Assembly (NCBI GenBank): GCA_015956445.1
Contig: WIUZ02000003.1
Location: 868,001-932,000, forward strand
DNA length: 64,000 bases
Origin: Thelephora terrestris
Lineage: Eukaryota; Basidiomycota; Agaricomycetes; Thelephorales; Thelephoraceae
Reading direction: 5' to 3'
Positions 17,329 to 38,914 of the stretch are shown one piece after another. The position numbers and the translations under genes were made by a program. The notes under the pieces are model-generated. The model was not told the DNA's origin. It ran no database searches and worked only from the letters and a program-made list of their open reading frames with translations. Position 1 is the first letter of the stretch. Every line of letters begins with the position of its first letter.

Positions 17329-20300
17329 ATGATCCCGCACGATCCCTTCCATCAGCTACGGGCTCTCGATAGAACTTCGCCGCAGTTTCGCGACCAGCTT
17401 AGCAATTTCTTCCACGGAAATGCGTATCAGAGTCTTGTTCCGGATCTAGAAAGCGAGGATCTGGCGTGGCTCGTCGAGTACTTGGACAGTGTGAGTTGCC
17501 ACCGGAGCGTTCGCTTATTTGCCTCGCTTAGAACCTTCGTAGGTTCTCGCCGGTATTTTGAACCATGCAACCCCGGCATTCCAGGAATCCTTGCACGAAC
17601 TTGGGAAGTTATGCGGCACCAAGGAAGTGCTACCGAAATCATCGATACTTTCAGAGTCGCTTCTGGGATGTGTTTACGAGGGTACTTTCAATGGCTCGAA
17701 GGTGCGCATCAGACGTGTCAGGATATACCCTGGGCAAGACCCACGGAAGGTCAAAGAGGTGGGGACTCGATTCCGCGTTACCTTGTCCTCAGGTACTCAC
17801 ATATATCATAGGTCTTCCATCAGGCAGCCGCAATATCGAAACACCTGGCGCATCCGAACATTATACCCCTTCTGGGTGTAACCGTCGATCCACTTGAACT
17901 CATTTCGGATTGGATGCCGGGCGGAGATCTGATGATGTATATTAGAAACAATGCAAAGGTGAACAGATCCTCTCTCGTGAGTTTCTCTCCTTCCGCGCTG
18001 TGTGACGTGTTGACCTCCCCGTCAGCTAGCCGACGTTGCCGAAGGCCTCCATTACCTCCACTCCCAGGATGTGATCCATGGAGATCTTAAGTGTGTACGT
18101 GATCGTCTGGACCTCGTTTTATCGCCGTGTTCACTCTCAGTTAGTCAAACATCTTTGTCGACGCGGCCGGCCGTGCACGGATCACGGACTTCGGGCTCGC
18201 TGCAGTCATGCGAGATCACGATTCGATGTGGAATGCTTCAACTGAGCACGGTCAAAGTGTGCGATGGATCGCACCTGAAATCTTAGGCAATCGAGTGGCG
18301 CATAGCAAGGAAGCAGACATTTTCTCATTTGCAGGGGTCGCAATCGAGGTCCGTCGCAGATGAATAGTACTTGAGGCCGATAAATGACAACCATTGTTGT
18401 CTGAACGAAGGCTTTCACCGGTGCCGCTCCATTTAGTGACAAGCCGCCTCACGAAGCTAGATTGGCGGTCACCGGTGGTGAGCGTCCGTCACGACCGGCC
18501 CGCCCGGCTTTGACGAACGGGCAATGGTCACTGATACAAAGATGCTGGGACCATGAACCTCACTTTCGCCCACGCGCATTGCGAATTTCATCTTGCTTGT
18601 GCGTTACAACTCCGGAATCACGCAGATGTCAACCTGACCTGTTTCTCACACAAAGCGGCGTCGCAGCGTGGAAGCACATGGTTGAACTTCCTCTCGCCTC
18701 GGACGCCCAGATCTACTTAATCACAGACATCTTCTCCGATTCCGACGAAATCGAGGTGGTCAAGGGTCTTAGTGGAGCCGATGCACAGTTATTTGTCGAC
18801 GTGGTAGATAAGGCACACCCCTTCCCTCTTATCGAAAATAGGCCCGCTGAATCGTACTTGGACTTTGTTATGGTGCTGAGCAGATGTCTGACAGCTTAGA
18901 ACCGCGGCTGCGGCAGACGTGTCTGAGTGTATTGTGCAAGATATGCAGTCGCCAAACTCTGCTCCCAAGATCACTACAAATACTCCCCCGCTATGACCGA
19001 TCAGAATATCCACTGTGCAGCGGCGGGTTCTCCGACGTGTGGATGGGCGAACATCAAGGCACCAAGGTTGCGGTTAAGGTGTTGAGAGTAACGATAAAAA
19101 AACTGAATATGGTTCAACGCGTATGTAACCCTCCGAAACCTTCCAAAAGTGTGCGGAGGTGCTTATTATGATTGCGTAGAGATTCTGCAAGGAAGTCATC
19201 ATGTGGAAAAGTCTCTGCCACCCAAAGGTGCTCCCATTGTTGGGAGTAATGATGGAGAAGCAGCGCTTTGCGATGATATCAGAGTGGATGGATAATGGGA
19301 ACATTAACGAGTTTATCGAGGAGCATAGGAACATAAATCGGTTCGAACTCGTAGGGACTCCATCCTAATGCCGACTGCGCTCGCCATTGTTAACACATTG
19401 ATAGCTCAAGGACGTCACCAGAGGGTTGCTATACCTGCATGATCAGGCAATGATCCATGCTGACCTGAAGGGGGTATGGTTTTTATTGTTGGTGGCAAAC
19501 CTATCGCTTAACCTGCTTCTACCCAGGCAAATATCCTGATTGACCGAAGCTGGCACGCACGCTTGGCAGATTTCGGGCTTCTCACATTCGTCTCAGACCC
19601 CACGAACCCCACAGGCTCAATTTCAACTGCTAATTTTGGTGGCACCACACGGTGGATGGGTCCGGAGCTCCTCGATCCAACGCGGTTTGGCTTTGAAGAC
19701 AGTCGACCAACGAAAGAATCGGATTGTTATGCATTGGGAATGGTGATACTTGAAGTGCTCAGTGGTCAGGATCCTTTCGCGCATGATAGCGCGATCATCG
19801 TCATGGGGAAGGTTCTCAACGGTGAACGCCCAGAGAGGCCCAAAGAGGCGTGGTTCACGAACGATATATGGGGAACTCTAGGACAGTGTTGGTCATCCCA
19901 GCCGGAAACACGCCCTACCATTGGAGCCGTACTTCAATGTTTGGAAAGAGTCTCACTGGCCACCACTATGAGCTCCCGTCAACGCTTAATCAGCCGTTCA
20001 TTTTCTCATGGTGAACTCCCCTTCCTTCTTGAGACAGCCCTTTGGACCAGGGAGCCGGCGCGCATCGTTCAATCACTTCAAGGGTGTAACACCCAGGACT
20101 CTATCGACGTTTTACACGAGGCACGTCATCATCCTCCTAATTCTCCATGAGTGATTTGATTTACTGCTTTCTCAACCTTCCACATTCGATTGATTAGGTA
20201 TTAGGAAAACTCAGTCTACCACCAGGGATCCGGAAGGAGTGCTTGCAATCGTTACGCGAGTTGTGTGGTTGTCACGCTCTATTTCCCACATCGCTGAAGA

Positions 20301-23288
20301 TTAGACTCGACAACATTCAAGCTGATGGTGTGCTATACCGGGGGGGATCTGCGGATGTGTTAAAACACAACCACCAAGGCCAGGAGGTTGCGGTCAAGAC
20401 ATTGAGGATCTCCAGTGATGCTGACTTGGAAGTGATTACCCATGTGGGTTGTTAACACTTTTCTCCTCACATAACCACCGGCACACTAACCTTGACTGTA
20501 TAGAAATTCTGCAAGGAGTTCGTGTTATGGAACGCTCTTCGGCATCCAAAGATGTTGCCACTCATTGGAGTGATAATGACTGGGACCCAGTTCACGATGG
20601 TGTCGGAGTGGATGCCGAATGGGAACATCAACCAGTTTGTGAAGGAGCATCAAGGTGTGAATCGGTTCGAACTTGTTAGTTCCCATTAACGCCCCTGAAG
20701 TCTTTATCACTTGTTGACAATTGTGTGGCTCCTACAGTTGAAGGACGTCGCAGAGGGCTTGATCTACATGCACGGTCAAGGGGTGATCCATGGTGATCTC
20801 AAGGGGGTACATCTTGTAAAGCTGGACTTAGATTTTTCTCATTGACATCATTCATCTCTCAGGGTAATATCCTGGTTGATCAAGGTTGCCATGCCCGCAT
20901 CGCAGACTTTGGACTCACAATTCTCTCTGACTCAACAATCTTGAACTTATGCACACAACGTGGCACCACCCGATGGATGAGTCCAGAACTCTTTGGCTTG
21001 GAACTCCAAGACTGCAATCCAACAAAGTTTTCGGATTGTTATGCTCTCGGAATGGTAATATATGAGGTCCTCAACCTGCGTATACCATTCTATGAATATA
21101 GGACCTTGGCCATTCCCGGGAAGGTCGTTCGAGGTGATCGTCCTGAGAGACCCAAGGGGGTGGATGGGATATGGTTCACTGAAAATGTGTGGGGGGTGTT
21201 GGAGTGTTGTTGGGTGCCCAAACCACAGGGCCGCCCGAGTATTGAGGTTGTGCTCCGTTGTTTGGAGGAAAGTTCAACATTTTGGGTGCCACCTACCCGT
21301 TAGTTGTCTGCTATTTATTCATCAAGCGGTTCACTCACAAGTTTTCAGCCCAACACACTACTGAAAGCGCTGATACATGTGGGGTAACTTCCCCCTCTCG
21401 CTCAGCCTCGTCTCAGTCTACAGAGAAATTCAACCGAGAGGACTTTGCAGGAACCACAGAAAAGGTGCGTCGGTAAGAGTTGTTATGAGTTCTGGTATCA
21501 ACTTGGTGCATTCGTTTCTTGCTGTTGGCCTTCAGCGAGATCTGCCCCTTGATGTAAGTGATGTACCTCCCTCCTCTCGGTTAGTCGCGTCACAATCTAC
21601 GGGGAAACTTGGAAAAGGGGACTTTGCCAGAATCACTAACAATGTGTGTCTGGAAAGTCTTCTCTTCGAATTGTGATATCAGCCTGATGCATCAGGCTCC
21701 TCTTGATTCCCTTCAGCAAGACCCGCCTCCCCGTGCAAGCAACCCATTGCCTACACATGACCTTGCAAGAGAGGCTATCTGGCCCAGAACTAGCGCAGAT
21801 TCAGCATTTCCCCTTCCAACCTGGCTGACTGATATGCTCAGCTGGGATGGGAAGTCAGACATTAGTCAGGTGTTGACCGTCGCATTTGGAGCTGCGGACT
21901 ATCTGGACTTTATCAAAAATCTCAAGGAGCGAGGTATTAAGCCGCTATCATACATCAACAATTTAGACAACGTCTGTGTACCCTTGAGCTCAACACGACA
22001 GGCCGAGTTTTTGACAATTTTGAAATAGATCATCGACAGTCTCCCAGCTGACTCAGCTCTGCAACGGCAATGCGTACGAGCGCTGAGAAAGACATGTGGA
22101 CTGCATGGAATCCTCCCCACTTCATACGAAGTCACCTGCCCACTTAGCAAGCCTGGTCCTCGAGCGTTTGCAGCTGGGCTGTTCTCTGATGTCTGGAAAC
22201 TCACCGACACAAGGGATGACAGTGAGGTCTTCGCGGTCAAGACACTCCGTGTGTATGAGCAAGATCCAGCTGATATGATTAATAAGGTATGAAGGTCCTT
22301 TCAAATGTAACCATATTGAGGATTTGACTTGCAAACTTTGATGTAGAAATATTGCAAGGAAGTGGTTGTGAGCAAGCGGGCAAAACATCCAAATATTTTG
22401 TCCATTGAAGGTGTGGCCCCAAAATCATTCAAATTCTGCATCGTATCTCGGTGGATGGAGCATGGAGATATTATGGCATATGTAAAGAGAAATCCAGGGG
22501 TCGACCGCCTGGAATTGGTGCGTCCGATGCATCAGCCATCCGGTTCTGAGCTGACGAGAGTGAACTTAGTTGATTGGGGTCACCCGCGGTCTCGACTATT
22601 TACACAACAGCGAAGTTGTCCATGGGGATCTCAAGAGTGTGAGTAGAGGCCGCGCTTTCTTTTCATCAACTAACTTGCCACCTTTCCAGCCGAACATCCT
22701 CATTGATAAGGGAGGCATTCCCCGCCTTTCCGACTTCAGCCACTGTTCAATCACGAGAGATATCGATACAGTTAATGCCTCGACCCCAAACCACGGCTAC
22801 ACGGTCCGTTACTGTGCACCAGAGCTTCTTGACGCCGCGAGGATTGAGGACAGGAAACCCACGAGCAAGTCGGACGTATATTCCTTGTCAATGGTCGTCG
22901 TCGAGGTACGTCTGCAGTCCGAAAGCAGGCCATCAGTCCCTGATCGGCTCCTCAGCTGGTGATCGGAGAGATGCCCTTCCGTGGTATCTCGGATATAACC
23001 GTCTCCGTCATGGTCTCAAGAGGCGAGCTACCGCCAAAGCCTCAGCAATTTGATGCGCCGGGAATTTCCCCAGCAGTCTGGAAGGTCGCAAAGACGTGCT
23101 GGCACAAGAGAGCGGGGGAGCGACCGGAGGCCAAGGAAGTCCTCCGGGATCTTGAGAAGATCGCTAACCTTGGTAGGTGCACACTCATGCTCCCATTTAT
23201 GGTGGTAAAGGCTGATCGGTTTACGGCTGAAGAAGGCAGCGAGCAGCAGGCACAGTGGAAACAAAGGTTGCGCGACATTTTCGACTGA
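17329..23288 (+). CDS. four-kinase-domain protein (C-A-A'-B), copy 1
   Basis: Modelled as one gene of 23 exons, ~1,559 aa: 17329-17490, 17543-17758, 17812-17976, 18026-18094, 18145-18348, 18411-18598, 18656-18812, 18884-19120, 19180-19350, 19405-19473, 19527-20120, 20198-20443, 20504-20674, 20738-20806, 20863-21298, 21349-21464, 21536-21643, 21717-21971, 22029-22286, 22347-22517, 22570-22638, 22690-22905, 22956-23288. Domains: C ~55-335 (beta-3 Lys replaced, KVRIRRV; HGDLK and DFG kept; probable pseudokinase); A ~388-744 (VAVKVL, HADLKG, DFG); A' ~745-1051 (VAVKTL, HGDLKG, DFG); Ser/Thr-rich linker ~1052-1126; B ~1127-1559 (FAVKTL, HGDLKS, but DFS for DFG). The A' and B segments open without an ATG and no in-frame stop separates domains, which argues against separate genes. 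Introns at 18813 and 20121 have GC donors. Substrate unknown; allosteric control of active by degenerate domains is inference. Confidence 0.8.
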
Positions 23289-23479
23289 GTGCTATTACGC
23301 TTCAGAGGCCATAATTTTATTTCACCCCCGATCTCAAGTGCTCAATGTGTGATGAATTCCGCGGAATGATTGCACAACCCTGCTATTTCGTGATACGTAG
23401 TTGAACAAACGAGAGGTAAAAATATATTGATTGACATAACCCCATCAAGGATATGCAGTGTTTGCCGGTTTCGCTTCAA
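23289..23479. other. short spacer, 3' region of four-kinase gene
   Basis: Downstream sequence of the four-kinase gene, resembling the 3' regions of other type-B kinases. No coding signal. Confidence 0.4.
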
Positions 23480-24420
23480 TTAACAAGGGCGAAAAGAATT
23501 TCTCGGCCGAAGAAATATAACTAATGGGGGTGCGTTCAGCGATCAACGGCCTTTCGAAAGGATAAAAAATACCATGGAGCACGAGACGGGAGACAGCCGA
23601 CATTAGGAAATGATGGGGTGGGGGTCAATGAGCGGAGGGCACTTTCTGGGGTGGGAGGAAAAATATGCAGTTGCGTTGCGATTGTACAAAGGCGCTGGGA
23701 TAACCGTAAAGCCTGATCACGACAAAGTCCAGGGAAACACCTTCCATACGCCGAGCGGACCCCCGCGGAGACAGTTTGGGGTGAGGGTGAACGAGGGCGG
23801 TCGCAGGGAGGGGGAAAGTGTTCACAGACGTGGCTAGAATATAGAGATTTCATCGAGTACACTTGATGACCATCAGTCGAGCTACAATCGTGTGGATAGG
23901 TTCCATTCGTGTAATTTGCTGGAGATTCGCTTCGATACATACCGACGAAAGAAACCCCGGTAGTCGTCGAGGATTCCCCGTTATACTCACCGTCCGTGGA
24001 TTCCAGACGCAGCATCTCGTTAATTTGTTCTAATAGATGATTTTTTCTAAGAGATGGGATGACCCAGGTCGAGAGGTCGAGCTCGAACGGGACGTTGTAA
24101 TTCCCCGGTCTCGGGTGAGCCGAACCAGAATGGGAGACGCGTGGGGCCGGTTCCCGGGTACACGTTGGTAAGTCATGGGAGCGGAGTATGGAGGACAGAT
24201 ACTCCGTAACGATCTAAGGAGGGTGTTAAGCTGCGGTGCGATGAATCGAACCCGGACCAGCGAAAAGGGGAACTGGGCGAATCAAGAACCGCTTCGTGGG
24301 AAAGCGTGGCAGATATGGAGGGCATTCATTGCTTCCACGTGAGGATAGCGGGCAGATGGAGATCTTTGTAAGGGTGAAATAAGCTAAAGTTCTTCGTCAC
24401 CGGTCGTCCGGAGCCACGAA
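23480..24420 (-). pseudogene. STE12 relic 1, 3' part
   Basis: Aligns in order with the 3' flank and C-terminal coding region of the intact STE12 at 57.4-59.0 kb. The non-coding stretch GAAGAAATATAA is shared, followed by the minus-strand frame MLRLESTDGEYNGESSTTTG (intact: MLRLDSMDGGYPGESSTTTG) and HQVYSM. It reaches the zinc-finger region near 24.35 kb (DLHLPAILTWKQ frame). The frame is broken. The match resumes at 27.05 kb, so this copy is split by an insertion. Confidence 0.8.
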
Positions 24421-24449
24421 TTCGTTGAACTGGGTTCCGCCTCCCGCTG

Positions 24450-24659
24450 TTGGCCAAGGTCACGGATGTATTTGCCCTCCACGATGTCGAGCCGGTTCGA
24501 GTAAATAGCAACATGCAGCTAGTCTATACATACAGGTGCTCAGAGATCAAGAGCTATCGATACGGGCTGGACGACTGGGCGACCGAAAAACAGCTGGACC
24601 TGCTGTGTAGACGTGCGGCAGGGGTGTTCATCTATGCAACGGCGAAGGTGCTGGTGTGA
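24450..24659 (+). pseudogene. NACHT/NLR-type NTPase fragment
   Basis: Frame with FALHDVEPVRV, SEIKSYRYGLDDW and EKQLDLLCRRAAGVFIYATA. This series matches the winged-helix/ARC-side segment conserved in agaricomycete NACHT NLR proteins (sensor-type STAND NTPases). There is no ATG (the frame opens at TTG), no P-loop, and a stop at 24657-24659, so only ~70 codons of a protein normally many hundreds long remain. Confidence 0.75.
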
Positions 24660-25118
24660 TGATTTCGCCGTTTACCCCCTTTCATTTTCTTTATTTAACG
24701 CCTCATCACCACTAAGTCAGTTGGTGCCCTGCCCTAAACACGGCGGTAAACTGTTTATTATGCAGTATGCCCTATGCTTAACGACTCAAAGTCCAATACG
24801 TGGAACGTGCTACTAGTCAAGATACCCCAGAAGACCCGAGGTATAATACGTGAACATGTACCGGCGGACCTTCATACGAAGATCCCCCCTACCTGGCCCT
24901 CCGTTGCCCCTGGACGACTAGTAGATATTCAGGCTACCGACAACAAGGGATGTATTAATAAGCGTCGCGCGCTGACCTCTCGCAGAAGTCAACCGGCTTA
25001 TTAATCTGACCCTTGGATTGGACTTATGAAAACCATTATGCTTTACAACTCATGGATCACACGCAATAGACAAAATAGAAAGAAGATTCATTGGAAGCCA
25101 ACAGTACAAAAGAGTTAT
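24660..25118. other. AT-richer spacer, no gene
   Basis: Nothing recognisable. Probably the 3' untranslated region of the coiled-coil gene plus decayed sequence. Confidence 0.4.
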
Positions 25119-26381
25119 CTAATCAATATCTCTTCGGATCCTTTGTACTACTTCCAATGCCGATCTCACCAACTCCTCATTCAGCCAATTCTGCTCTCGG
25201 ATCTCGTTCGGGTCTACGTCCGACAGGTCGTCGTAATCTGGAAGCTCTGTGTCAGAGTTCGGTTCGCTATCAGGAACGAACTCGGCATACGGATCGTACT
25301 CCAGAGCAGGCCATTGACGGCGACTACCCCAAGGAGTAGATACGAATCCAGAACGAGGGGTGTCCCGACGAACGACTCCCAAGTTCTGATAGAACTCGTC
25401 GCTCCCAATCTCGATAACCTCATCATCAACAGGAACCAACCTGTTCTCGTGACGAACCAACAAACGAGCGGGTGGCGACTCAGCCCGATTGGGAATTATC
25501 GGCGACCCGGCCCGATGCAGAACTTCCTCTCCCTCCTCTTCTTCGACTCGGACCTCCGGCTCGTTACACCTCCTCTGGAGATCCCGGACTTCTCCGGTCA
25601 ACTCGGAGACACGACGAGTAAGGCGAACCTAAAGGAATAGGGTTAGAAGAGACCAATTGTCTTCAACCCCTACCCCTTACCTTATCGTCCTCCAATTCTC
25701 CGGTTTTGGTAACCAGAGCCCGGACCAAGTCCTTCAAGGTAGTCACCTCTCCCTAAAGGAAATGTTGGGTTAGAAAAGTCAAATATCTCCCGACCCCACA
25801 TTTACCTTTAGCAAATCAATATCGGCCCCCTGCCGAACAACGGTATCTTCCTGTCCATGGATAACCCCCTGCATATCCTCCTTCCAGTTCTCCAAGGCCT
25901 CTATCTCCTCACGACGACCATCGATGCGCTCGTTGACATGAGCCACTTCGTCCATCAACATGGACCCAACGTTCCCCGTATGGAGAACGCTGGCCTCCAA
26001 CACGGAGTTAAAGGTCTCGTTGGATTCGGTCATGAATTCGACACCCCTATTAAGGAGTTCGCTCGCATATGGGTTGGTCTCAATACGCGCCAACTTGCGC
26101 CGAGACACCCTGCGAGCGGCCTGGAGAAAGTCCCTGAAACCTAAAAGGAGTTAGCTTGGTTTCCTAAATCGGAATGCGCAAGCAGGGCCCCCACCTAAAT
26201 CAGAGAACCCCTCATTAGGGTCGGCGGTGGCGGTCCGGTCCATAACTGCTCCCAAGGTGGGATAAGGACGGGACGGATCCCGACGGGCATGGGAGAAGCG
26301 GTCGATGTTATAGTTGTTCTCCTGAACAGGAGAGTAGGAGGAGGAACGACGAGTGGGATTACGAGTAGAGGCACGAGGCAT
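25119..26381 (-). CDS. coiled-coil protein with acidic C-terminal tail, function unknown
   Basis: Four exons in transcript order: 26381-26195, 26140-25806, 25752-25681 and 25628-25119 (367 aa), all phases consistent, and all three introns end in the same TTTAG acceptor. Start MPRASTRNPTRRSSSYSPVQ, with an Arg/Ser-rich basic N-terminus. The middle (about residues 120-215) is heptad-like coiled coil (AHVNERIDGRREEIEALENW, LVRALVTKTGELEDDK, VSELTGEVRDLQRRC). The C-terminal half is acidic (VRVEEEEGEEV; DPYAEFVPDSEPNSDTELPD) and ends in a short helix. No enzyme motif. The intact reading frame inside a decayed region suggests recent arrival or selection. Mobile-element gag-like or host structural roles are both possible. 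Confidence 0.8.
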
Positions 26382-26571
26382 GTTGTGAGTGTGTAACAAA
26401 GGTGGGTTTGTTGGAAGACCAGTCATCCAACCCCCTTTGGTTATATACCAAATGCCACGCCCCTTCCACGACTCAGGAGTTGAGTCATCATTTCTATTGT
26501 TTACTGCGCATGACCCACATGACATCATATGCCCCTATTTCTTAGTCATATGCTCCCTTTTTGCCATTGGC

Positions 26572-26987
26572 TGTTAGTCAGTCATACCCACATTCCTTCC
26601 GAACATTCCCAGGCTACGTCATGCTTTGTAATTGCTCTGTAATGCTCTCAAATTGCTATTGGCCGCCACACTTTCGTTTATCAGCTGATAATTTGTAGCA
26701 TTAGTCACCACGTAACGCACAGACCATGCAGTGCTGTGCACGGACCATGTTTGTCTGTGTTTGTATCCATAGTGTAGTTACATGTGACGGTCACATCACA
26801 AATCTAAGTAGTATATATACTCGGAGTAGTTTAGCCTGTACTCCTTAGATTTGTTATCATCAGACTCTCCGTGACCTCTACTGCTGTGTGCTTAGAGCAA
26901 GAGTGCCTGAAGACCCTTGTCTCCTTCTTTCTCCTCTTCTCCTATCTAGTCTGTGAAGAGACTTCCGATATCCCTGGGTTTGCAACA
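26572..26987 (+). repeat. possible solo LTR / strong promoter segment
   Basis: 416 bp beginning TGTTAG and ending CAACA (TGTT...AACA termini), with an internal TATA-like palindrome AGTATATATACT (26810-26821). The run GGGTTATAAC after the end is where a primer-binding site would sit. No second LTR, polymerase or matching 5-bp target duplication is seen, so it may instead be the divergent promoter of the coiled-coil gene. Confidence 0.35.
26782..26796. promoter_or_regulatory. 15-bp inverted repeat ATGTGAC-G-GTCACAT
   Basis: Perfect 7-bp arms around one base, with a TGACGGTCA core similar to bZIP (CRE-like) sites. It lies ~14 bp before the TATA-like palindrome, a typical promoter position. Confidence 0.45.
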
Positions 26988-27049
26988 GGGTTATAACTGT
27001 GTGTTTGACCCCTGAGTGTGATAGGTTTGAATAACAAGAGTGTTATTGA

Positions 27050-27650
27050 ACTGTAGAGGTCGCGTCGGCCTGACAGCTGGGACTTCTGGTAAAGAATAAC
27101 AATTCATGTACGACCATTCATTGGGAAGCGTCTCAAGGTGAACGCGGAAGGATTGAAGAGCGGCTCCTGAAAGTTCTGGGCGCAAATTGGGTGCTGGGAA
27201 CGCATCAAGAGATTCAACGCGTCCTCGTTTGGGACAAACATGCTGAAAAGATAACGATAACCTACAGATTTTGATCAGTAAGAGAGACAGTGGTGGGAAC
27301 GAATTCGACGAACCGGTCCGTGTACATGTGCGAGAATTCATCATCGGCGGCCAGTCCAGCAGCCCAACTGACGGCATCGTGGATTTGCTTCGAGCTTCGC
27401 TGCCAAGCATCCAAGGACCTCCCCGCCCCGGTGGGTCGAGGGCGGGTAGAGGTCAATATAGACGAGAACGCAGAGTTGAACAGGGTAGACTGTCGAGGTT
27501 ACCCTTGTGGCACACTGGTTGCATCGTGAATGGATGGACAGTTGTTCGCCCGCATCCCGTTGTTCGCTGATCGAAGTCGTGGAAATTTCTCGCACTCTCA
27601 GGTGTCGCTGGCTATCCAACCCCATTACACCCTTGTGGCTGATCCTGCTA
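27050..27650 (-). pseudogene. STE12 relic 1, 5' part
   Basis: Continues relic 1: CGCTGGGACTTCTGG-like start, then LPNEWSYMNCYSLPEVPA (intact: LPNEWPYVDHSSSPEVPA). Next come segments corresponding to the region downstream of the homeodomain and to the N-terminus near 27.4-27.6 kb. Large internal deletions relative to 59.0-60.6 kb; non-coding. Confidence 0.7.
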
Positions 27651-28290
27651 TCGAAGTCTCAGCGCAACCCCCTCTCCGGCCCTCCTGAATTTTCGGACGA
27701 CCGTCGACGGCGTCGTATCCATCCTGAACGGACGACCCAGTCATTGAAGGGGGACAGAAAAGTGCCTCGGCCAATCGCGCCTCTCGTTGTTCTACTCCTC
27801 TGGGATTCCCGCTCGGTTCGCCTAAGCGCCTACTACTTTTCACTAAGAAATGAAACGATCAGATTCTGACCACTGACCCCGAACCGCGTTAGGCCATGAG
27901 GTTGATGAATCGATGGTCGTAGGAAAATTTGGTGGTTGAGTTGGGTGTCATGGTTCTGAGCGCAAGGATGATCCACTCAACGCTAGACGATGTGGGTCCC
28001 GGGCAGAAGAAAACACACGCGAGCCTTGCAGCTTTCGAGAGGTCAATCTAAAACGAGCTGGCGTAATTTATAAACAGTGGTGGGTGGTAGATCAAGCAGG
28101 GGCACAGTACGAACGTACCACGGAAGGTATACAGCACTCAGGTATTCAAGCGCGTCAGAATATCGGCCCACCAAGCACTCATCCACTTGAGCTCACCCCC
28201 ACAACATCATAACCGCTCCAAGTTTACGGGTTTGAAGGCCTTTCGGTAGGCCTAGCGAGCAGCGGGGGATGGGTCACATTTGCCTAGGCG
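27650..28290 (-). pseudogene. family-F relic, copy 2
   Basis: Shares with 41.67-42.0 and 47.7-48.1 kb a minus-strand block that reads like RPLESCKARV..FFRPG and a flanking GAACCGCGTTAGGCCATGAGG sequence. Frames are broken. Confidence 0.5.
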
Positions 28291-28689
28291 CGGAAAGGGA
28301 CGGAAGGGTGGGAGTTCCGATGAGCGGGAGCAAAGGTTGAGCGGTTGGCTCGGGTTCCCCGATCAGGAGATTCTGGTGACAGCCACAGTGGCTGTGCTGA
28401 GTCACCGCCTCTCTTCTGCTACGCCCCCCTAGGTACCGTCCCCTCGCAAACCGTTCCTCCTCCGCCTCTGAATTCGAGGCTGGATTCCAGCCTACTCTTC
28501 TGCTGTCCCATCCGTCTTGAGCGTTGTTGGTTGCGTCCCGGCGGTTTCTAGATGAGTCCGCGTGGTTGCTTTCAAATGCGAAGGGCTGCACCTTTGTTTT
28601 GGCATTGCGATAACATCTGCCCCGCCCTTCGCAAGTTGTGCTTGTTCCCACTCTTCTCATAGTTTATATTCAACCACTGCTTGGGGATG

Positions 28690-29400
28690 CGCGCTGGAGA
28701 CACATGACCGGACTCGGATCTAACAGAGCAAGGACAAACGCGATGGAGATATTTGGCAAGGTACGTCCAGAAAACATGCCCCGTTTGCTCGAGTAATCGA
28801 GTGCCACTGTCCGACGCGCGTTCCTACAGCCCAGGAACGTAACGATGGGAACCTCCTGAATGAATTCCGCCAGATGTGCGAACGAACGGGTTTACTCCCG
28901 GCTTTCTACATAAGTCTACACCGTGCCCAACTAGTCGATCCAACGAATCCTGAATCACGGAGCCTGCACAGCAACACCGACCACGATCATGATCCCTCCG
29001 TTATCCAGCACCCTCGTACTCCGGCATCTCAGACGATCTTCACAGTGATAAAACTCACAGCAGGGTCAAAAACTGGGTTGGGCGTCCAAATCTCACCCTT
29101 AGTGCCACAGCGTTCCGTTTTGCCGATACACCTTTCTGCCGATGCTTCTAGATCAAATAGGACAGGCTCGCCATCCTGGCGTACAACCAACGGCAGGAAA
29201 AATTCACGTCCGTTAGCCCCACAAATAAGTCAAACACGTACTCATCGACCGTTGTGATTCTAATGCAACGCCCCTCCTCTTCCCTAGAATCCGACCGTCT
29301 GACCTCACAGCAACTTCAAATTTTCATTGAGAGGCCTCCAGAATGTGGTCCCTTACGAACAGGTGCTGGAGGAAGGAACCCAATCAACACCTGACATACC
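28690..29400 (-). pseudogene. family-P relic, copy 3
   Basis: Almost identical to copy 2; contains GEPVLFDLEASAERCIGKTE and the GRTLP-ending piece. Non-continuous frames. Confidence 0.45.
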
Positions 29401-29940
29401 GGAGGTCCCGAGGGAACTCGAGGGTGGGTCTGGTCGTGGTACGTTCTCAGTTCTCATTCACTTGTTTAAAATGAGCGCAGGAACCCATCGGATGGATCAC
29501 TTGCGGCTGCACTGAACCCAATCGAATTTCCCCTTAATCCGGACGCTACTGTGCTAAGCCGATTTGATCATTTATTCTGTGATATTGTGGGAAAGCAACA
29601 CCGATATGTAGGAATCCTGGGTTTGTGCGAGGCGCTGTCCGTCCCATGATCGATGAACGCCGGCTCCTTCTGTTTCCGTCTGATTATCTCCTGTGTAACT
29701 GCGATTCGAGTTGACGTTTCAATTACAAGCAGACTGCAGCGGATGATGAGTTAGTGGGCTTTTTTTGTGCGTCCGTGTGACCTGCAGGTGACACGATAAC
29801 GACCCATACCTCTCATCGGCCCGAACTCCAACTCCCTGAGCAAGGGCACGCTTCTTGTGCATGCAGTGGACCGACGGTAAACGCAGCCTTCGGCGCTTCG
29901 CATGTTAGGTCAGGGATCGGCTGCGTGCAGCATCACGCTA

Positions 29941-29952
29941 TCCACATATAAG
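29941..29952 (+). promoter_or_regulatory. TATA-type core promoter of type-B kinase
   Basis: TCCACATATAAG plus CCCCGTAGTCTGGAAAGATCA, ~40 bp before the ATG at 29989. Confidence 0.7.
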
Positions 29953-29988
29953 CCCCGTAGTCTGGAAAGATCACCTCTCCCAGATAGC

Positions 29989-31543
29989 ATGCCAGGTGAA
30001 ACGCCCTTACCCCCAGCGACGACGCCCTCTCAGACAGTCCCCGCCCCGCTTTGGCTGAAGAATATCCTCAGCTGGGATGGGTTATCTCCAGACACCGACC
30101 AGAGGTTGGCCATCGCATTTGAAGCCGATGACTATCTGGCCTGCATCAAAAATCTCGAGGGGCGAGGTGTCAAACCGCTATCATACATCAACAGCTTGGA
30201 TAGGGTCTGTGTAAATTTGGTTCCGACGCGCCGGGCCCAGGTTTCTGACAACCTTGAGACAGATGGTCGACAGCCTTCCAATCGATTCAGACCCACGGCG
30301 ACGATGCATACGAGCGCTGAGAAAGACATGTGGATTATACGGAATCCTCCCTGATTCATACACAATCACCTACTCACTCAGCAAATCTCCGAATCAGCGA
30401 CCGTTCGCGAGTGGAGGATCCGGTGATGTCTGGAGAATCGCCGACGAAACACACAACATAGCTTACGCGGTTAAATCGCTTCGCGTATATGAGGAAGATC
30501 CTGTTGACAAGATTCATAAGGTAAAAATCCCCCTCCAAATGCAATCAGATTAAGGAATTGACGTGCGATCTCTCGATGCAGAAATATTGCAAGGAAGTAA
30601 TCATCTGCAGGCGGGTGAGACATCCAAATATCCTGACCATCGAAGGCGTGGATCCCAGGCTGTTCGAATTCTGCATGGTGTCTCAATGGATGAAACACGG
30701 GCATATCCTCGATTATGTGAACAGATACCCAGAAGTCAACCGACTGGAATTGGTGCATCCGATGCATAGGCGATCTGGTTCTGAGCCGACAGAGTGCACG
30801 TAGTTGATTGGGGTCACCCACAGTCTCAATTACCTACACCTCAACGAAGTTGTCCACGGGGATCTCAAGAGTGTGCGTGGTGGTTAGGCTCTTTTTACGT
30901 CAACTAACTTGCCATCTTTCCAGCCGAATATCCTCGTCGATGAGGGAGGCATTCCCCGCCTTTCCGACTTCGGCCTCTGTTCAATCACGAAGAATATCAA
31001 TACGGTTAACGCCTCGACCCCAAACCACGGCTTTACGGTCCGTTACTGTGCCCCGGAGCTCCTCGATAACGAGGAGACTCCGAGGGTTGAGAAAAAAAAA
31101 GCTACGAACAAGTCGGACGTATATTCCTACTCAATGGTCATCGTCGAGGTACGTCTGTCCTCTGAAAAAAGATAAAGCAGTTCCTGATCGGCCCTGTTTT
31201 CAGCTGGTTACCGGGCAGGTGCCCTTCCCAGACCTCACACATTACAATGTCCCCTCCATGGTCACAAAGGGAAAACGACCACCAAAGCCTCGTCGCTTCG
31301 ATGCCCCCGGGACTTCCAAAGCGGTCTGGGAGGTCGCAGAAAAGTGCTGGCATAGTAAGCCGGACAAACGACCGGAGGTCAAGGAAGCCCTCCAGTATCT
31401 CAATAGCATTAATACCGGAGGTGAGTGCACATACGTGGCATGTTCATATCTGGGATTGGGGTCGGAAAATTGATCGATTTGCAGTCGACGACGATGGCGG
31501 ACGGCCCACGTGGAGCAAAAGGTTCCGCGAGATATTCAACTGA
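29989..31543 (+). CDS. type-B TKL-like kinase, recent duplicate
   Basis: Seven exons: 29989-30204, 30263-30520, 30582-30752, 30804-30872, 30924-31148, 31204-31420 and 31485-31543 (404 aa). Same length and residue numbering as the gene at 15519-17064, with few amino-acid changes. N-domain LWLKNILSWDG; glycine loop SGGSGDVWR; Lys in YAVKSL; HGDLKS; DFG; APE; CWHSKPDKRPEV; tail GGRPTWSKRFREIFN. All catalytic residues are retained apart from HRD to HGD. Changes fall mostly at synonymous or surface positions, as far as can be judged by eye, suggesting a functional paralogue or recent gene conversion. Same strand as, and 1.3 kb before, the second four-kinase gene. Confidence 0.93.
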
Positions 31544-31639
31544 ATGCTATCCCACTGGCGACTCGCGTAGAATGATTGTACCGCCCCACTCTTTTGCAAA
31601 ACTTAGCTGGACACACGAAAAACAACAAGATATTAGTTA

Positions 31640-31770
31640 ACATGCAGGGTCCACCAATTTCGCACGAGGAGGGTGATTTTGAGTGATGAAAATCATGCCT
31701 GACTACAAAGCATCGAGAGCTTTTACCTCTACCCTGAGCTACCGTGGAAATGATAACACGTTGACGCGAA
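31640..31770 (+). repeat. type-B 3' tail repeat
   Basis: Contains ACAACAAGATATTAGTTAACATGCAGG, shared almost exactly with 47100-47120, and the following TTTCGC...GATGAAAATCATGC block. Confidence 0.6.
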
Positions 31771-31879
31771 TATAGCCTCGAGCTCATACAACCGGCATTA
31801 ACGGGATCGAAACTTCTCGTGGGACTGCCAGCCGAGGCCTGCGGCTATGACGTCTGATGGGTTCTGAACGTGGCGCTGG

Positions 31880-32400
31880 GGGCTGAAGGTAGAGGTAGAG
31901 GGAGAAGAATTCATGGGGAATTGTTATTCAACGCAGACATCCTGATCGACCATCCCGTTTGGTTCCCCAACATAGGCTACCAGGTTGGCGGTGATCCGCC
32001 TTTCTTCATCACCAACTCCTCAACCTCAGCGTGCCTAATTTCGTCTTCACCCATGGCTGCTATGTAACGTGCAATTTTATCAGCCACTCTCCCAACGTCC
32101 ATCCGAACGCGGAATGCTGGCTATCCTTGTCCTGTCAGAAAAAAGTCTTGTTCCACCGGTGTCACTGGAGCGGTGACACCACCCCTTGCCATCGAGATTG
32201 CCTGTTATATGTTTCGTGCGGTCGTACACGCTTCCACTTGAGGATAGCGGGCAAATGAAGATATTTGTGGGTGGTAAAAGCTGATGCAGATGCTGGCATT
32301 TCTAGTTGAAGAATATTAATCGATGCGTAACCGTTCGGAAGAGCCACTAGCTGGTTGCGGAAGGATTGAGGAGTAACTCCGAGAATCACAGAGGCCTGAT
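31880..32400 (-). pseudogene. STE12 relic 2 (mid to zinc-finger region)
   Basis: Ordered match to the intact gene at ~58.5-59.1 kb. ATTCATGGGGAATTGTT, the GCCTAATTTCGTCTTCACCCATGG stretch (intact: TCGTCTTCACCCATGGCAGCC), and ATAGCGGGCAAATGAAGATATTTGTG in the first finger. Many substitutions and an eroded second finger. Confidence 0.75.
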
Positions 32401-32850
32401 GAGAAGACCGTCAGAACTTTGGCTCGTGGTCCTCCTCCGACTCCCTTCACATCGAGTTGTACGGAAAAGAAGGATGAAAAGGTAGACTCGGAAGACTTGC
32501 AGAGCGGAGAAGTGCCTCTGCGCTCCCGGTCCGCTGTTGGTTTCATTGCACACCGCGACGACTACCAGGATAAAAACCTGGTATGAGACGACAGTGGGTT
32601 ACGTTGCTACAGAAAAACAAAGGGAAGGGACTTCGGGAGGACTGGGAAATGTCAAAGGCATGCCCACGTGACGACAAGCAGAAATAGATGTGCCATGTGG
32701 GAATTCCAGCTTCGGTCTTGGCTACGACCGCTACCTACCGCTACCTCCAATTCCCCCCCAACCGCTAACGATATCCGGCGTTTCATATTTACCCGCTGCA
32801 GGATTGAAGATCCAGTTCACTGACTCTCACGGATACCTGCAAACGGTACA
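32401..32850. other. spacer before second four-kinase gene
   Basis: No gene seen. The last ~160 bp resemble the sequence before 17329 (GCAAACG near the start), so this probably carries the promoter. No TATA like that of the type-B genes. Confidence 0.4.
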
Positions 32851-35800
32851 ATGGCCCAAGCCGTCACCCCCATAATCCAACAAGATCCCTTCCAGCAGCT
32901 TCGCGACCTCGACAGAAATTCGCCACGGTTCCACGAGCAGCTCAGCAACTTCATCTGCGGGGATGTGTACCGAAGCGCCTTCCCAGATATAGGAAGCGAC
33001 GATTTGGTGTGGTTCGTCGAGTACTTGGATAGCGTTAGTCTCTGCTTGAAGTACCATTCTCTGTGCCTTGATCAGAACCGTTGTAGGTTCTTGCCGGTAT
33101 CTCAAATCATGCAACTCCAATATTCCAAGAATCCTTGCATGAACTCGCAAGAATCTGTAGTGCCAAGGGAGTCCTACCAAAATCATGTACATTTACGGGG
33201 TCTCTTCTCGAACGTGTAAATAAGGGTACTTTTAGCGGCTCAAAGGTGCGCATCAGACGTATCAAGGGATACCCAGGAGGAGACCTGCGAAAGCTCAAGG
33301 AGGTGGGGACTTGATTCTACACTCCGTTTTCCTCAGGCACTCACATATCACATAGGCCTTTCATCAAGCGGCCGTAATATCGAAATACCTGGTGCATCCG
33401 AACATTGTACCCCTTGTGGGTGTAACCATCGATCCCCTCGAGCTCATTTCGGACTGGATGCCGGGTGGAGACCTGATGCGGTATATCTCAAATCATTTAG
33501 AAGTGGACACGCCCTCTCTCGTGTGTTCTCCTCCTATCGCATTGTGTGACGTGCTGACCTCCCCACCAGTTATCCGACGTTGCTGAAGGCCTCCATTACC
33601 TCCATTCCCGGAATGTGATCCATGGTGATCTCAAGTGTGTATGTGATTGTTTCAAATCTCGCCTCATCTCCTTATTTACTCTCGGTCAGTCAAACGTCCT
33701 CGTCGACGCGGCCGGCCATGCACGGATCGCAGACTTTGGACTTGCTGCGGTCAATCGAGACCCGGACTCGACCTGGAGTGCTTCAACTGAGCACTGTCAA
33801 AGTGCGCGATGGATAGCACCAGAGATCTTAGACAATCGAGGGACATATAGCAAGGAAGCAGACATTTTCTCATTTGCAGGGGTCGCGATCGAGGTCCGTC
33901 GCAGATAAATACTACTTGAAGCTGAAAATGACAAACCATTTTTTGTCTGAACAAAGGCTTTCACACTCGCCGCTCCGTTCAGTGACCGGCCACCTCACGC
34001 AGCCAGGTTGGCAGTCATCAGTGGTGAACGTCCGCAGCGGCCAGCCCACCCAGCATTGACGGACGGGCTATGGGCATTGGTACAACAATGTTGGAGTCAG
34101 GAGCTTGAAACTCGCCCACGTCCACTGCGGATATCGTCTGCCTTGTGCGTTTCAATTCTGGAACTACGTACACATCGATCTGACTTATTCTCATGTGCAG
34201 CGGCGTCCCAGCGTGGAAGCGGATAGTCGAGCTTCCTCTTGCTTCGGAAGAGCAGATCTCCCTGATCACAGACGTATGCTCTGACCGTTACAAAGCCGAG
34301 GCAGTTCAACACCTCAATGAGGGCGATGCTCAATCCTTTGTCAATGTGTTAGAAAAGGTACTTCCCCACTCTTTCATCCTAGGAGGACAGACTCAGATTG
34401 GAATTTGTCATACCGAATAGACACTAGATATACTTGGGACACGGCCCCGACGCAAGTGTCTGAGTGTCCTGTGCAAAATATGCAGTCGCCAAGCTCTGGT
34501 TCCAAGTTCACTACAGATCCCGCTTTGCTATGATCCATCTGCGCATCCACGGTGCATCGGTGGGTTCGCCAATGTGTGGATGGGCGAACATGAAGGCAAC
34601 AAAGTTGCGGTCAAGGTCTTGACAGTCTATACGTCAAGTGACTTCGCCAAGATTACAAGTGTAGGTCACTCTCCAAATCATTCAACCAGGGGTGCTGATT
34701 GCGGCTGCGTAGAGTTTCATCAAGGAAGTCATCATGTGGAGGAGCCTCCGTCACCCAAACGTGCATCCAATGTTGGGAGTGACAATGAGCAGTAGGCACT
34801 TTGCAATGGTATCCGAGTGGATGATCAACGGCAACATCAATGAGTTCCTCAAGGAGCATAGAAGTGTGAACCGATTTGAACTCGTAGGGACTTCATCCGA
34901 CTGCAACTTGCATCCATCATTGATGATCTTCCCTGTTAGCTCAAAGATGTCACAAGAGGGTTGATATATATGCATGATCTGACAATGGTACATGGGGACC
35001 TGAAGGGGGTATGATTTTAGCCACTGTGATCACCATGCCGCCTAACTTGCATTTTACCAAGGGGAACATCCTGATCGACCAAGACTACCATGCACGTCTG
35101 GCAGATTTTGGGCTTCTCACCTTCGTCACAGATGCCGCAAACCCCACGGTCCACAATTCGATTGCGGGCACTGGTGGCACCACGCGTTGGATGAGCCCAG
35201 AGCTCCTCGATCCAGAGAGCTTTGGGTTCGAGGACAGTCGACCAACAAAAGAGTCGGATTATTATGCATTGGGAATGGTCATACTTGAAGTGCTCAGCGG
35301 TCAGGCTCCTTTCTTCCGCTTCAAGGAATTCCTCGTCGTGCCGAAAGTGATTGACAGTGAACACCCGGAAAGGCCGAAAGTGACGTGGTTGACAGATGAC
35401 CTATGGCGAGTTTTGGAAAAGTGCTGGTCATCCCAGCCGAAGGACCGTCCCACTGTTAGGACTGTACTTGACTGTTTGGAAAGAGTTTCGGTGGCGACCA
35501 CTGTCGACTGCCAGCAACGCTTGATCGACCGCTCTTTTTCCCAGGGTGAACTCCCCTACCTTCTTGAGACGGTCTTATGGAATTGGAAGTCGACCCATGT
35601 TGCTCAATCTCTCCAAGGAGATAACTCCCAGGCCTTTGTCGACATGTTGGATGAGGCACGTCATCACACTCCTGATTTCTGAGGAACTGTTCGATTTACC
35701 GCTCTCTCAAAGGCGTTGGGTATCGCCAACCTACCACTAGGCATCCGGAAGGGGTGTTTGCAATTATTATGCGAGACGTGTGGTCGTCTTGCGCTATTTC

Positions 35801-38778
35801 CCACCTCCCTGAAGATCAAACTGCACAGCATTCAAACCAACACTTTGCCCTATCGAGGAGGATCTGCGAATGTGTTGAAACACAACCACCAAGACCGTGA
35901 GGTTGCAATCAAGACACTGAGGATCTCTACCTCCGCTGACATGCAAGCGATTAGACATGTGAGCTGTTGATGGTCATTTGTCCTTCGCGCGATTATTGAC
36001 ACGCTGGCCACAACTGTACAGAGATTCTGCAAGGAGTTTGTATTATGGAATGCTCTTCGGCATCCAAACATACTGCCACTCATTGGAGTGATAATGACTG
36101 AAGCTGAGTTCACGATGGTGTCTGAGTGGATGCCAAATGGGAACATCAGCCATTATGCAAAGGAGCATCAGGATGCGAATCGGTTTGAACTTGTTGGGCC
36201 TCCATCAAAACTCCTGCGATTCTTATGTGCTGACGATTATGTGGCTCCCGCAGTTGAGCGACGTTGCGAAAGGCTTGATTTACATGCATGATCAAGGGAT
36301 GATCCACGGAGATCTTAAGGGGGTACGCCTTTTGACGCTGGACTCAGATCCCCCTCCTCAACACCGTTCATCTCTCAGGGTAATATTCTGGTCGATCAAA
36401 CTCAGCACGCCCGTATCGCAGACTTTGGACTCACGATTGTCTCCGGCTCGACAATTTCGAATCTATGCAGACAAGGTGGCACCACCCGATGGACGAGCCC
36501 AGAACTTTTCACCTCGGAAGCCCAAGACTACCATCCAACAAGGCACTCAGACTGTTATGCCCTTGGAATGGTGATATATGAGGTCCTTACCCTGCGTGTT
36601 CCGTTCTATCAATATCAGAACTTGGTCATTTCTGGGAAGGTAGTTCGAGGTGAACGTCCTGAGAGACTTGAGGGAGCGGATGGAGTGTGGCTCACAGATG
36701 GTGTGTGGGGAGTATTGGAACGTTGTTGGGAGCCCGAACCACAGGACCGCCCGGGCATTGAAGATGTGCTCCGTTGTTTGGAGGAAAGGTTGTCATCTTG
36801 GGTGCCGCCTTCCTGTTAGTTGTCTGTCATCCATTCAGCAGCCGGTTCATTTACAAGGGAATTTTCAGACCTCAAAACTAACGTGAGCAAAAATACTAGT
36901 GGGGTATCTTCCCCCTCTTGGACCGCCTCAGAGGCAACTGATCGGGGGGGCTCCCCAGGAATTTCTAATTGGGTTTGTCAGGAAAGTGTTCTCCCTGAGT
37001 TTCAGTACTCACCTGATGCGCAAGGGTCTCGACGATGAAATCCAGCAAGGCCTGCCTCTTGGTGCAAGCACCTCGTTATCTACGCGCGATCTCACGATGG
37101 ATGCTGTCCGTAGAGCTGGCGCAGAGCTGGTTGATCCCAGCCTACAGAATGGCGGATACTTATCTCCAGAGTCGACGGCGCACCCCGCTGGTGAAGAAGA
37201 CAGAAGTGCAGGCCAGTATCCTCTCCTATTCTGAACAGCCGTCCAGATTCTTACTCTCACCAGTTGATCGCACGATCTCGGCATCAACCTGGCTGGCTAT
37301 GGTCGCAAACTGGGATGGACAGTCTCAAGAAATTAACCAGGTGTTGACTGCCGCATTTGAAGCCGAGGACTATATGGATTGCGTCAGGAATCTCCACACA
37401 CGAGGTATTAAGCCACAATCGTACATAAACAATCTGGATAGGGTATGTAAGTTCCTGATTTCAAGGTGACACACTTGGTTTACAACGACCTGGACACAGA
37501 TCATCGATGGCCTTCCAGCTGATTCAACTCTCCGAAGGAGATGCATCCGCGCGCTGAGAAAGACGTGTGGATTATATGGAGTCCTCCCTACTTCTTACAC
37601 AATTGCCTTCACGCTACAAGGGCGTCTAATGCGACCTTTTGCCTCCGGAGGTTTTTCTGACATTTGGAAGATGGTGGATGAAGCAAACCCTGGCTGCCAT
37701 TTCGCGGTTAAATCGCTTCATGTATATGAGGGAGATCCTATCGAGAGGATCAATAAGGTATGAGACCTTCCCCAGATACAGCTGGATTAGGAGATAACCT
37801 GTGACTTTCAAAATAGAGATATTGCAAAGACGTAGTTGTTCATAAGCATGCGGTGCATCCAAACATTGTACCCTTTGAAGGTGTGGCTCCGACGCTGTTC
37901 GAAATCTCCATGGTGACTCGGTGGATGGAACTCGGAGATATCCTGAGTTACACAATGCAGCATCCGGGGGTCAATCGTCTGGAATTGGTGTGCTCTAGCA
38001 CTTTTGCGATCCGATTCTGAGCTCATTGGAATGCAGCTGATTGGTGTCGCCCGCGGCCTTGACTATCTACATGACAATGAAGTTGTTCATGGAGATTTGA
38101 CGCCTGTATGCAAAGATTATCCTGCCCTTATTCTCAACTGACGTGAGATTTTCCTCAGTCAAATATTCTCATTGACATGGAGGGAAATCCTCGCCTCTCA
38201 GACTTTGGTCGCTGTTCAATTACAAGGAATATCGACTCAGTCAATGCCTCGACCCCAAACCACTGCTCCACAGTCCGTTACTGTGCCCCAGAGCGCCTTG
38301 ACCACGAGGAGACCTGGAGGGCTGAGAAAAATAAACCCACGAAAAAGTCGGACGTATATTCCTACTCAATGGTTATCGTCGAGGCACGTCTGTCCTCTGA
38401 AAAAAAAAAAAACCAGTCCCTGATTGGCCTTCTTTTCAGCTGGTGACTGGACAGGTGCCCTTCGCAGACTCCACAGAATACAATGTTGTCTCGATTGTCT
38501 TAAAGGGGAAACGACCACCAAAGCCTCGTCGCTTCGATGCCCCGGGGACTTCCGAAGCGGTCTGGAAGGTCGCACAAAAGTGCTGGCATGGTAAGGCGCA
38601 CAAACGACCGGAGGTCAAGGAAGCCCTCCAATATCTCAATGACATTAAACACGGTGGTGAGTGAACGCACAGGCTCATATTTAGGATCGAGAAAGTTGAC
38701 CGAATTTTAGTTAAAGTTAGTGACTCGAGGCCGTCCGTGTTTAAGCTGAGGTCACAGTGGTTCTCCTCGTCCAATTGA
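32851..38778 (+). CDS. four-kinase-domain protein (C-A-A'-B), copy 2
   Basis: Modelled as 24 exons, ~1,542 aa: 32851-33033, 33087-33302, 33356-33520, 33570-33638, 33690-33893, 33957-34144, 34201-34357, 34421-34660, 34713-34883, 34940-35008, 35062-35655, 35713-35958, 36022-36192, 36254-36322, 36379-36814, 36869-36972, 37046-37205, 37264-37442, 37500-37757, 37817-37987, 38037-38105, 38159-38383, 38440-38656, 38711-38778. Same domain order as copy 1, with equal exon sizes through most of the kinase core. C: KVRIRRI (no beta-3 Lys), HGDLK, DFG. A: VAVKVL, HGDLKG, DFG. A': VAIKTL, HGDLKG, DFG. B: FAVKSL, DFG, but the catalytic loop reads HGDLTP (Lys to Thr). Introns at 35656 and 38384 have GC donors. 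One linker exon of copy 1 is missing or merged, and the frame is kept by a different splice near 36972 and 37206. The linker splices are the weakest part; without them the B domain would have no start codon. Confidence 0.75.
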
Positions 38779-38914
38779 ATGCCATTACGATTCAGATGCC
38801 ATGATTCCTACCTTTGATCCCAAAGTTCTTAACGTGTAGTAATATGACTGTACTGCCCTTTCGCAATGTGTAGCTGACAAACAAAAATGAAGAGATATTC
38901 GCTGACATCGTTAG

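Follow-up and report, generated by a model that had tools for sequence, protein, structure and literature searches.

Two Thelephora terrestris genes of a probable fungal tandem-kinase family, with a predicted pseudokinase ahead of two or three further kinases

Can one fungal gene encode four protein kinase domains in a single chain? The question is raised by two neighbouring loci, F1 and F2, in a stretch of 64,000 nucleotides (nt) of the Thelephora terrestris genome (contig WIUZ02000003.1, here C23, positions 868001-932000; hereafter the window), for each of which an earlier note had proposed one protein with four kinase units in the order C-A-A'-B. We conclude that F1 and F2 are probably members of a fungal modular tandem-kinase family, in which C, A and A' form one polypeptide, a pseudokinase followed by two kinases, and B lies behind them, either fused or as a separate gene about 450 nt downstream. 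Three kinases per chain are well supported and the fourth is about even; the number four is not established.

Kinase units of F1 and F2

The source genome comprises 40.6 Mb in 60 contigs. Splice-site and coding scores were supplied by a home-made gene finder (52 genes, 471 introns, median intron 55 nt), and splice-site scores were ranked against 364 trained donors, whose 1st percentile is -2.8. Because this finder over-merges, having made F1 and the stand-alone B gene at 15519 one product of 1877 amino acids (aa), gene boundaries were not taken from it, and finder exons that skipped kinase motifs in F1 and F2 were replaced by exons set by hand. Of the units in the two genes, those of F1 were scanned with Pfam and those of F2 were judged by alignment to F1. 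The genes and units are as follows.

17329-23288, + strand: F1, units C-A-A' (plus B if fused); 24-exon hand model, 1539 aa
17329-18598, + strand: F1 unit C, N-domain and predicted pseudokinase (VRIR, no C-helix Glu)
18656-19988, + strand: F1 unit A, N-domain and kinase, catalytic residues kept
19989-21298, + strand: F1 unit A', N-domain and kinase, catalytic residues kept
21783-23288, + strand: F1 unit B, N-domain and kinase, DFS for DFG
32851-38778, + strand: F2, the second copy; 24-exon hand model, 1542 aa, final exon uncertain
32851-34144, + strand: F2 unit C, predicted pseudokinase
34201-35523, + strand: F2 unit A
35524-36814, + strand: F2 unit A'
37264-38778, + strand: F2 unit B, HGDLT for HGDLK

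Both hand models have an open frame with a single terminal stop, and in both the units follow head to tail in the order C, A, A', B. Each F1 unit matched a kinase family (best Pfam E values of 1.2e-40 for C, 8.9e-42 for A, 3.4e-37 for A' and 2.8e-36 for B), and the kinase parts of F2, aligned unit by unit, were 61-74% identical to those of F1. A short N-domain of about 70-90 aa precedes every kinase and aligns among units, and the top solved-structure matches of the kinases were of tyrosine kinase or tyrosine kinase-like (TK/TKL) type, RIPK1, EGFR, ITK and CTR1 among them. At most positions the exons of F1 and F2 have the same size or sizes that differ by a multiple of 3 (216, 165, 69, 204, 188, 157, 237/240, 171, 69, 594, 246, 171, 69 and 436 nt, and later 258, 171, 69, 216/225 and 217 nt). 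The two copies are under purifying selection: the ratio of nonsynonymous to synonymous substitution rates (dN/dS) between them is 0.30 overall (1519 codons) and 0.28, 0.26, 0.28 and 0.27 in the kinases of C, A, A' and B.

Relatives occur elsewhere in the genome. Six extra loci were chosen because their matches clustered, so that finding multiple kinases in six of six is not a rate. They comprise a C-A-A' model with 3 kinases on C19 (L025), an A-A' model with 2 on C6 (L026), C-A models with 2 each on C1 (L027) and at 1.151M of C23 (L028), and two-kinase genes at 215k and 241k of C7 (L029, L030), in which an 810/828-nt exon joins the kinases. The finder model of the C-A gene on C1 (reverse complement 98-652) has a different extra N-terminal stretch. 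Among 29 pattern matches in viral contigs there was no relative.

In a tree of 23 kinase units, all from the source genome (B1, B5 and the L030 units left out, several rows shortened by finder errors), units clustered by position rather than by gene. Support was 100/100 for C, 100/100 for B, 100/97 for A' and 91/91 for A, with A' and the C7 pair placed next to A. The three subtypes described in the earlier note are thus a fair account, with strong support for C, A' and B as groups and fair support for A, which A' and the C7 pair adjoin. Its four kinase units per gene are borne out by the F1 E values and the F2-F1 alignment, and its matching exon sizes recur in our hand models. The F2 length it gave, about 1542 aa, was reproduced, and F1 came to 1539 rather than about 1559 aa.

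The units differ in their catalytic residues. In A and A' of both genes the Lys, the Glu, the HxD Asp and DFG are all kept. B is intermediate, DFG having become DFS in F1 and HGDLK having become HGDLT in F2. The VAVK stretch of A reads VRIR in the C units of F1, F2, C19 and C23, and VYVR in that of C1; in all five loci the beta-3 Lys is replaced by Arg, the C-helix Glu by Ala or Val, and the glycine loop is eroded. The HxD Asp is kept in four of the five (C1 has HGI) and DFG in three (C19 and C1 have DIG). Judged by these residues, C is a predicted pseudokinase at all five loci, a point that the earlier note had not made. Its suggestion of an active/pseudokinase switch has strong sequence support, C lacking both the beta-3 Lys and the C-helix Glu throughout. 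The built-in cascade that it also suggested is possible, given the intact catalytic residues of A and A' in the two genes.

Joints from C to A'

The following exons and introns bear on whether the first three units form one chain.

19527-20120, + strand: F1 exon 11 (594 nt), a single open exon running from the A C-lobe into the A' N-domain
35062-35655, + strand: F2 exon 11 (594 nt), joining A and A'
18813-18883, + strand: F1 C-A intron as drawn in the earlier note, GC-AG
34358-34420, + strand: F2 C-A intron, GT-AG (GTACTT), with the same donor in C19
20121-20197, + strand: F1 intron inside the A' N-domain, GC-AG (GCACGT); GC also in F2 and C6, GT in C19

A and A' lie within one open exon in F1, F2, C19 and C6. 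The match over query positions 555-753/754 is open, with no stop, in C19, C6 and F1; the alignment of this exon has insertions of 12 and 6 nt, and these single-exon joints are independent of the over-merging finder. The frame is open across the C-A joint as well, where exons of 188 and 157 nt have the same length in F1, F2 and C1. Between F1 and F2, dN/dS is 0.22 over the C-A joint and A N-domain and 0.35 over the A-A' joint and A' N-domain. On this sequence evidence, a predicted single chain of C, A and A' is well supported.

GC-AG introns were considered as a sign of decay. The idea was rejected at A-A', where the GC donor is common to F1, F2 and C6; the doubt stays for the C-A intron of F1.

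The A'-B boundary and the neighbouring array

Whether B belongs to the same chain depends on the features listed here, among them a comparison gene near 45k of the window.

21299-21348, + strand: putative A'-B intron of F1, donor GTTAGT with an in-frame TAG at 21301, acceptor TTTTCAG
36815-36868, + strand: putative A'-B intron of F2, donor GTTAGT with an in-frame TAG at 36817
21349-21464, + strand: F1 linker exon 16, 116 nt, no codon-level constraint; length and bounds as in 45121-45236
21687-21689, + strand: in-frame ATG ahead of F1 B, a possible separate start
37016-37018, + strand: in-frame ATG ahead of F2 B, a possible separate start
43694-47013, + strand: the 45k gene, with a non-kinase N-terminal module, a linker shared with F1 and then a type-B kinase

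Fusion and two genes are about even at this joint. We give an even chance to the proposal that F1 and F2 are each one chain of four units, C-A-A'-B, as the earlier note had it. Only just short of that stands the alternative that C-A-A' and B are adjacent genes, B starting from the ATG at 21687 or 37016 (or, in F1, from an inner Met at 21834) and the stretch between being a B leader.

A single chain would depend on splicing of the A'-B intron. F1 and F2 have exactly the same donor, GTTAGT, and the same acceptor, TTTTCAG, although 62 kb of the + strand contain 71 such pairs spaced 48-60 nt apart when real introns are counted. At 0.82, the F1-F2 identity of this intron is the highest among 23 introns. 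The donor scores -0.2 in F1 and 0.2 in F2, between the 10th and 25th percentile of the trained donors, the acceptor scores 4.1 and 3.2, and GTTAGT is also found at F1 intron 13, F2 intron 1 and 3 of the 364 trained introns outside the window. Against fusion, F2 would require another weak donor, GTGCAG (-1.5), and both copies carry the in-frame TAG. The claim that no stop intervenes therefore holds if 21299-21348 and 36815-36868 are spliced and fails if they are read through. The TAG inside the donor was absent from the earlier note.

The linker is similarly divided. In F1, F2 and the 45k gene, stops interrupt two of the three frames, and the linker frame stays open. F1 exon 16 and 45121-45236 are equal in length and bounds, the latter coming after a non-kinase module that precedes kinases elsewhere too, and the last 60 nt ahead of the B N-domain are coding-like, with a ratio of nonsynonymous to synonymous proportions of differences (pN/pS) of 0.34-0.47 among the three loci. 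These points favour one chain. Exon 16 itself, however, looks neutral, which favours two genes: its pN/pS of 0.63-1.12 resembles that of shifted frames (0.56-1.08), and between F1 and F2 the linker has a dN/dS of 0.72 at 31% identity. Conservation of the linker was tried as proof of coding and was found in the last 60 nt only, not in exon 16. Within the F1 linker, at 21349-21716, an exon-intron unit is duplicated in tandem, giving exons 16 and 17; F2 and the 45k gene lack the duplicate.

Two genes are also suggested by the C19 and C6 relatives, whose homology to F1 stops at or near the A' donor (F1 21298 and 21289), with no B after A' within the loci examined. The intergenic gap upstream of F1 is merely 264 nt, so 450 nt would be ample for two genes. 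B was said to lack an ATG at its start, which is wrong, as unspliced in-frame ATGs lie at 21687 and 37016. Yet conservation around the ATG need not mean a start codon, because CCTGATGC recurs out of frame in the 45k gene, as judged by eye, and CTGAT, 30 nt ahead of the acceptor, would suit a branch point; the 45k gene, as evidence on separate B leaders, was weighed both ways. A separate F2 B starting from 37016 would still require the weak intron 37206-37263. The promoter-like element ATATAA is missing ahead of B in F1 and F2, as the earlier note had claimed, which favours one chain over a separate gene. The stand-alone B units at 45.5k and 50.2k lack it too, and promoter loss was rejected as proof of fusion.

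The surrounding array comprises eight type-B units in tandem on the + strand of the window, two of them the last units of F1 and F2; ATATAA precedes four of the six that stand alone. Two of these flank the tandem kinases.

15519-17064, + strand: stand-alone type-B gene upstream of F1, its stop 264 nt ahead of the F1 ATG
29989-31543, + strand: stand-alone type-B gene upstream of F2

The 45k linker matches F1 21549-21775, with no match to the F2 query. The N-terminal module of the 45k gene (43694-45070) has no Pfam match and occurs at about 34 places in the genome. Of seven such loci viewed, a clear kinase follows the module in five (the 45k gene, C6, L033, L034 and L035) and a weak kinase piece only in L031 and L032; L034 (C31:3.6-6.0k) and L035 (C6:201.9-204.4k) have the same sequence in the compared stretch and may be an assembly duplicate. 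Two further A/A'-like kinase units lie at the left end of the window, at 1-883 (-) and 8365-9508 (+). A C2H2 zinc-finger protein at 57265-60700 (-), which we take to be Ste12-like although the data show the finger only, has four decayed partial copies within the array, at 23815-24108, 27102-27395, 32031-32380 and 40000-40810 (-), a pattern that would fit joint duplication of the array and this neighbour.

Interpretation and comparison with known systems

Several points weigh against membership of F1 and F2 in a tandem-kinase family. Gene order and joints are predicted here from gene models, with splice sites set by hand. Two exons, the sixth of F1 and the last of F2, have non-coding scores (-5.6 for the latter), and the finder stops F2 instead at 38839. 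The F1 C-A donor used in the earlier note, GCACAC, was not confirmed, its score of -3.0 lying below the 1st percentile of trained donors, and an alternative in-frame GT donor at 18804 (GTG/GTAGAT, score 0.5) drops three residues. The finder models of the six extra loci are weak evidence by themselves, as the finder over-merges, and A' of C19 reads HGN for HGD, showing that some A/A' relatives are degenerate. Finally, C might retain residual activity, since it keeps the HxD Asp at four and DFG at three of the five loci.

The C-A donor also raises the idea that F1 is decaying at this joint, C ending at the TAG at 18897 and A-A' starting from the ATG at 18884, with the full chain in F2 only. We consider this unlikely: the GTACTT of F2 and C19 is indeed GCACAC in F1, whose exon after the C-A intron does start with an ATG, but the exon upstream is still constrained, as the dN/dS of the C-A joint indicates, and the GT donor at 18804 is in frame. 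It is very improbable that the loci are a mere row of ordinary single-kinase genes, wrongly joined because introns were read through, even though the window does contain a tandem array of single B genes and ab initio joining over-merges, since A runs into A' in one open exon in four copies, two C7 genes have a similar exon, and units cluster by position across loci.

We therefore return to the family of modular tandem kinases. Its repeating unit would be an N-domain of about 70-90 aa with one TK/TKL-type kinase domain. If the protein is expressed, C, having lost phosphotransfer, may form the chain's regulatory and interaction end and restrain or position A, while A and A', if active, could phosphorylate one another or a common substrate inside one molecule. 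B would be either a fourth domain on a short unconstrained linker or the product of a separate gene about 450 nt downstream. Regulation by C, trans-phosphorylation and any sensing role are suggested here by JAKs and plant tandem kinases. A bolder version, which we hold only tentatively and think rather doubtful, makes F1 and F2 true four-unit chains, the largest in a family that freely shuffles kinase units and non-kinase N-terminal modules; they would then be the fungal equivalent of plant tandem-kinase sensors, with sensing done by the pseudokinase. The natural series of one, two, three and perhaps four units in one genome raises the question of what each added kinase does, and per-gene counts of fungal kinases may miscount domains.

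Among fungal kinases the closest comparison is FslK, fungi-specific kinases related to tyrosine kinases and expanded in mushroom-forming fungi, most of whose 241 members lack an additional domain according to the available parts of PMC3937382. As in FslK described there, the AARN motif is missing in all eight F1/F2 units (DLKCSN, DLKGAN, DLKGGN, DLKSPN, DLTPSN), as is the first Pro of XP(I/V)(K/R)W(T/M)APE (for example GTTRWMSPE, QSVRWIAPE and YTVRYCAPE), and Pro stands at the fourth position of GXR(L/M) in all eight. The full GXRP is present in six, the exceptions being B of F1 (GELP) and A of F2 (SEHP). The kinases here are likewise TK/TKL-type. The likeness to FslK lies in motifs. Unlike FslK, the catalytic set is incomplete in C at all five loci and in B of F1 (DFS) and F2 (HGDLT), though complete in A and A' of both genes; and unlike FslK as presented in those parts of PMC3937382, there are several units per chain with a degenerate C. 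The basidiomycete Laccaria has a large TKL expansion, and the available account in PMC2838846, unlike ours, makes no mention of multi-kinase chains (its text has 0 occurrences of 'two kinase domains' or 'multiple kinase domains'). Among the literature matches listed, none describes a tandem or multi-kinase fungal protein, nor one with at least three kinase domains, a weak negative as subscription journals lie mostly outside.

Plant tandem kinases such as Yr15/WTK1 and Sr62 have two or three kinase domains, one often a pseudokinase; the domains may differ in subfamily, with an origin by duplication or fusion (PMC6170490 and PMC8956640, in the parts available). The proteins predicted here share at least two kinase domains (C-A-A' by gene structure), one of them a pseudokinase, C. 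They differ in coming from a fungus, where the plant proteins are of receptor-like-kinase descent, in the N-domain before each unit and in having the pseudokinase first, at least as plant tandem kinases are portrayed in those parts of the two papers. The source is not a plant, because its genome matches the fungal kinase family PF17667 in 62 places. The likeness is one of architecture only.

In Janus kinases (JAKs) one chain carries a pseudokinase and, C-terminal to it, an active kinase, with FERM and SH2 domains ahead of the pseudokinase. JAKs are themselves named as a parallel of plant tandem kinases in the available part of PMC6170490. F1 and F2 resemble them in placing a pseudokinase ahead of a kinase with intact catalytic residues, and differ in that two or three kinases follow it, not one. 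JAK membership is excluded because neither FERM nor SH2 matched in the F1 units, where Pfam returned kinase families, ABC1 and one sub-threshold TCAD9 only. Pseudokinase-bearing tandem kinases are known from animals (JAK) and from plants (disease-resistance tandem kinases). A recurrent fungal family with units of differing descent, always led by the pseudokinase wherever C occurs, would, if true, add an independent example of this design. On our best reading, the family would work like plant tandem kinases or JAKs while belonging to neither.

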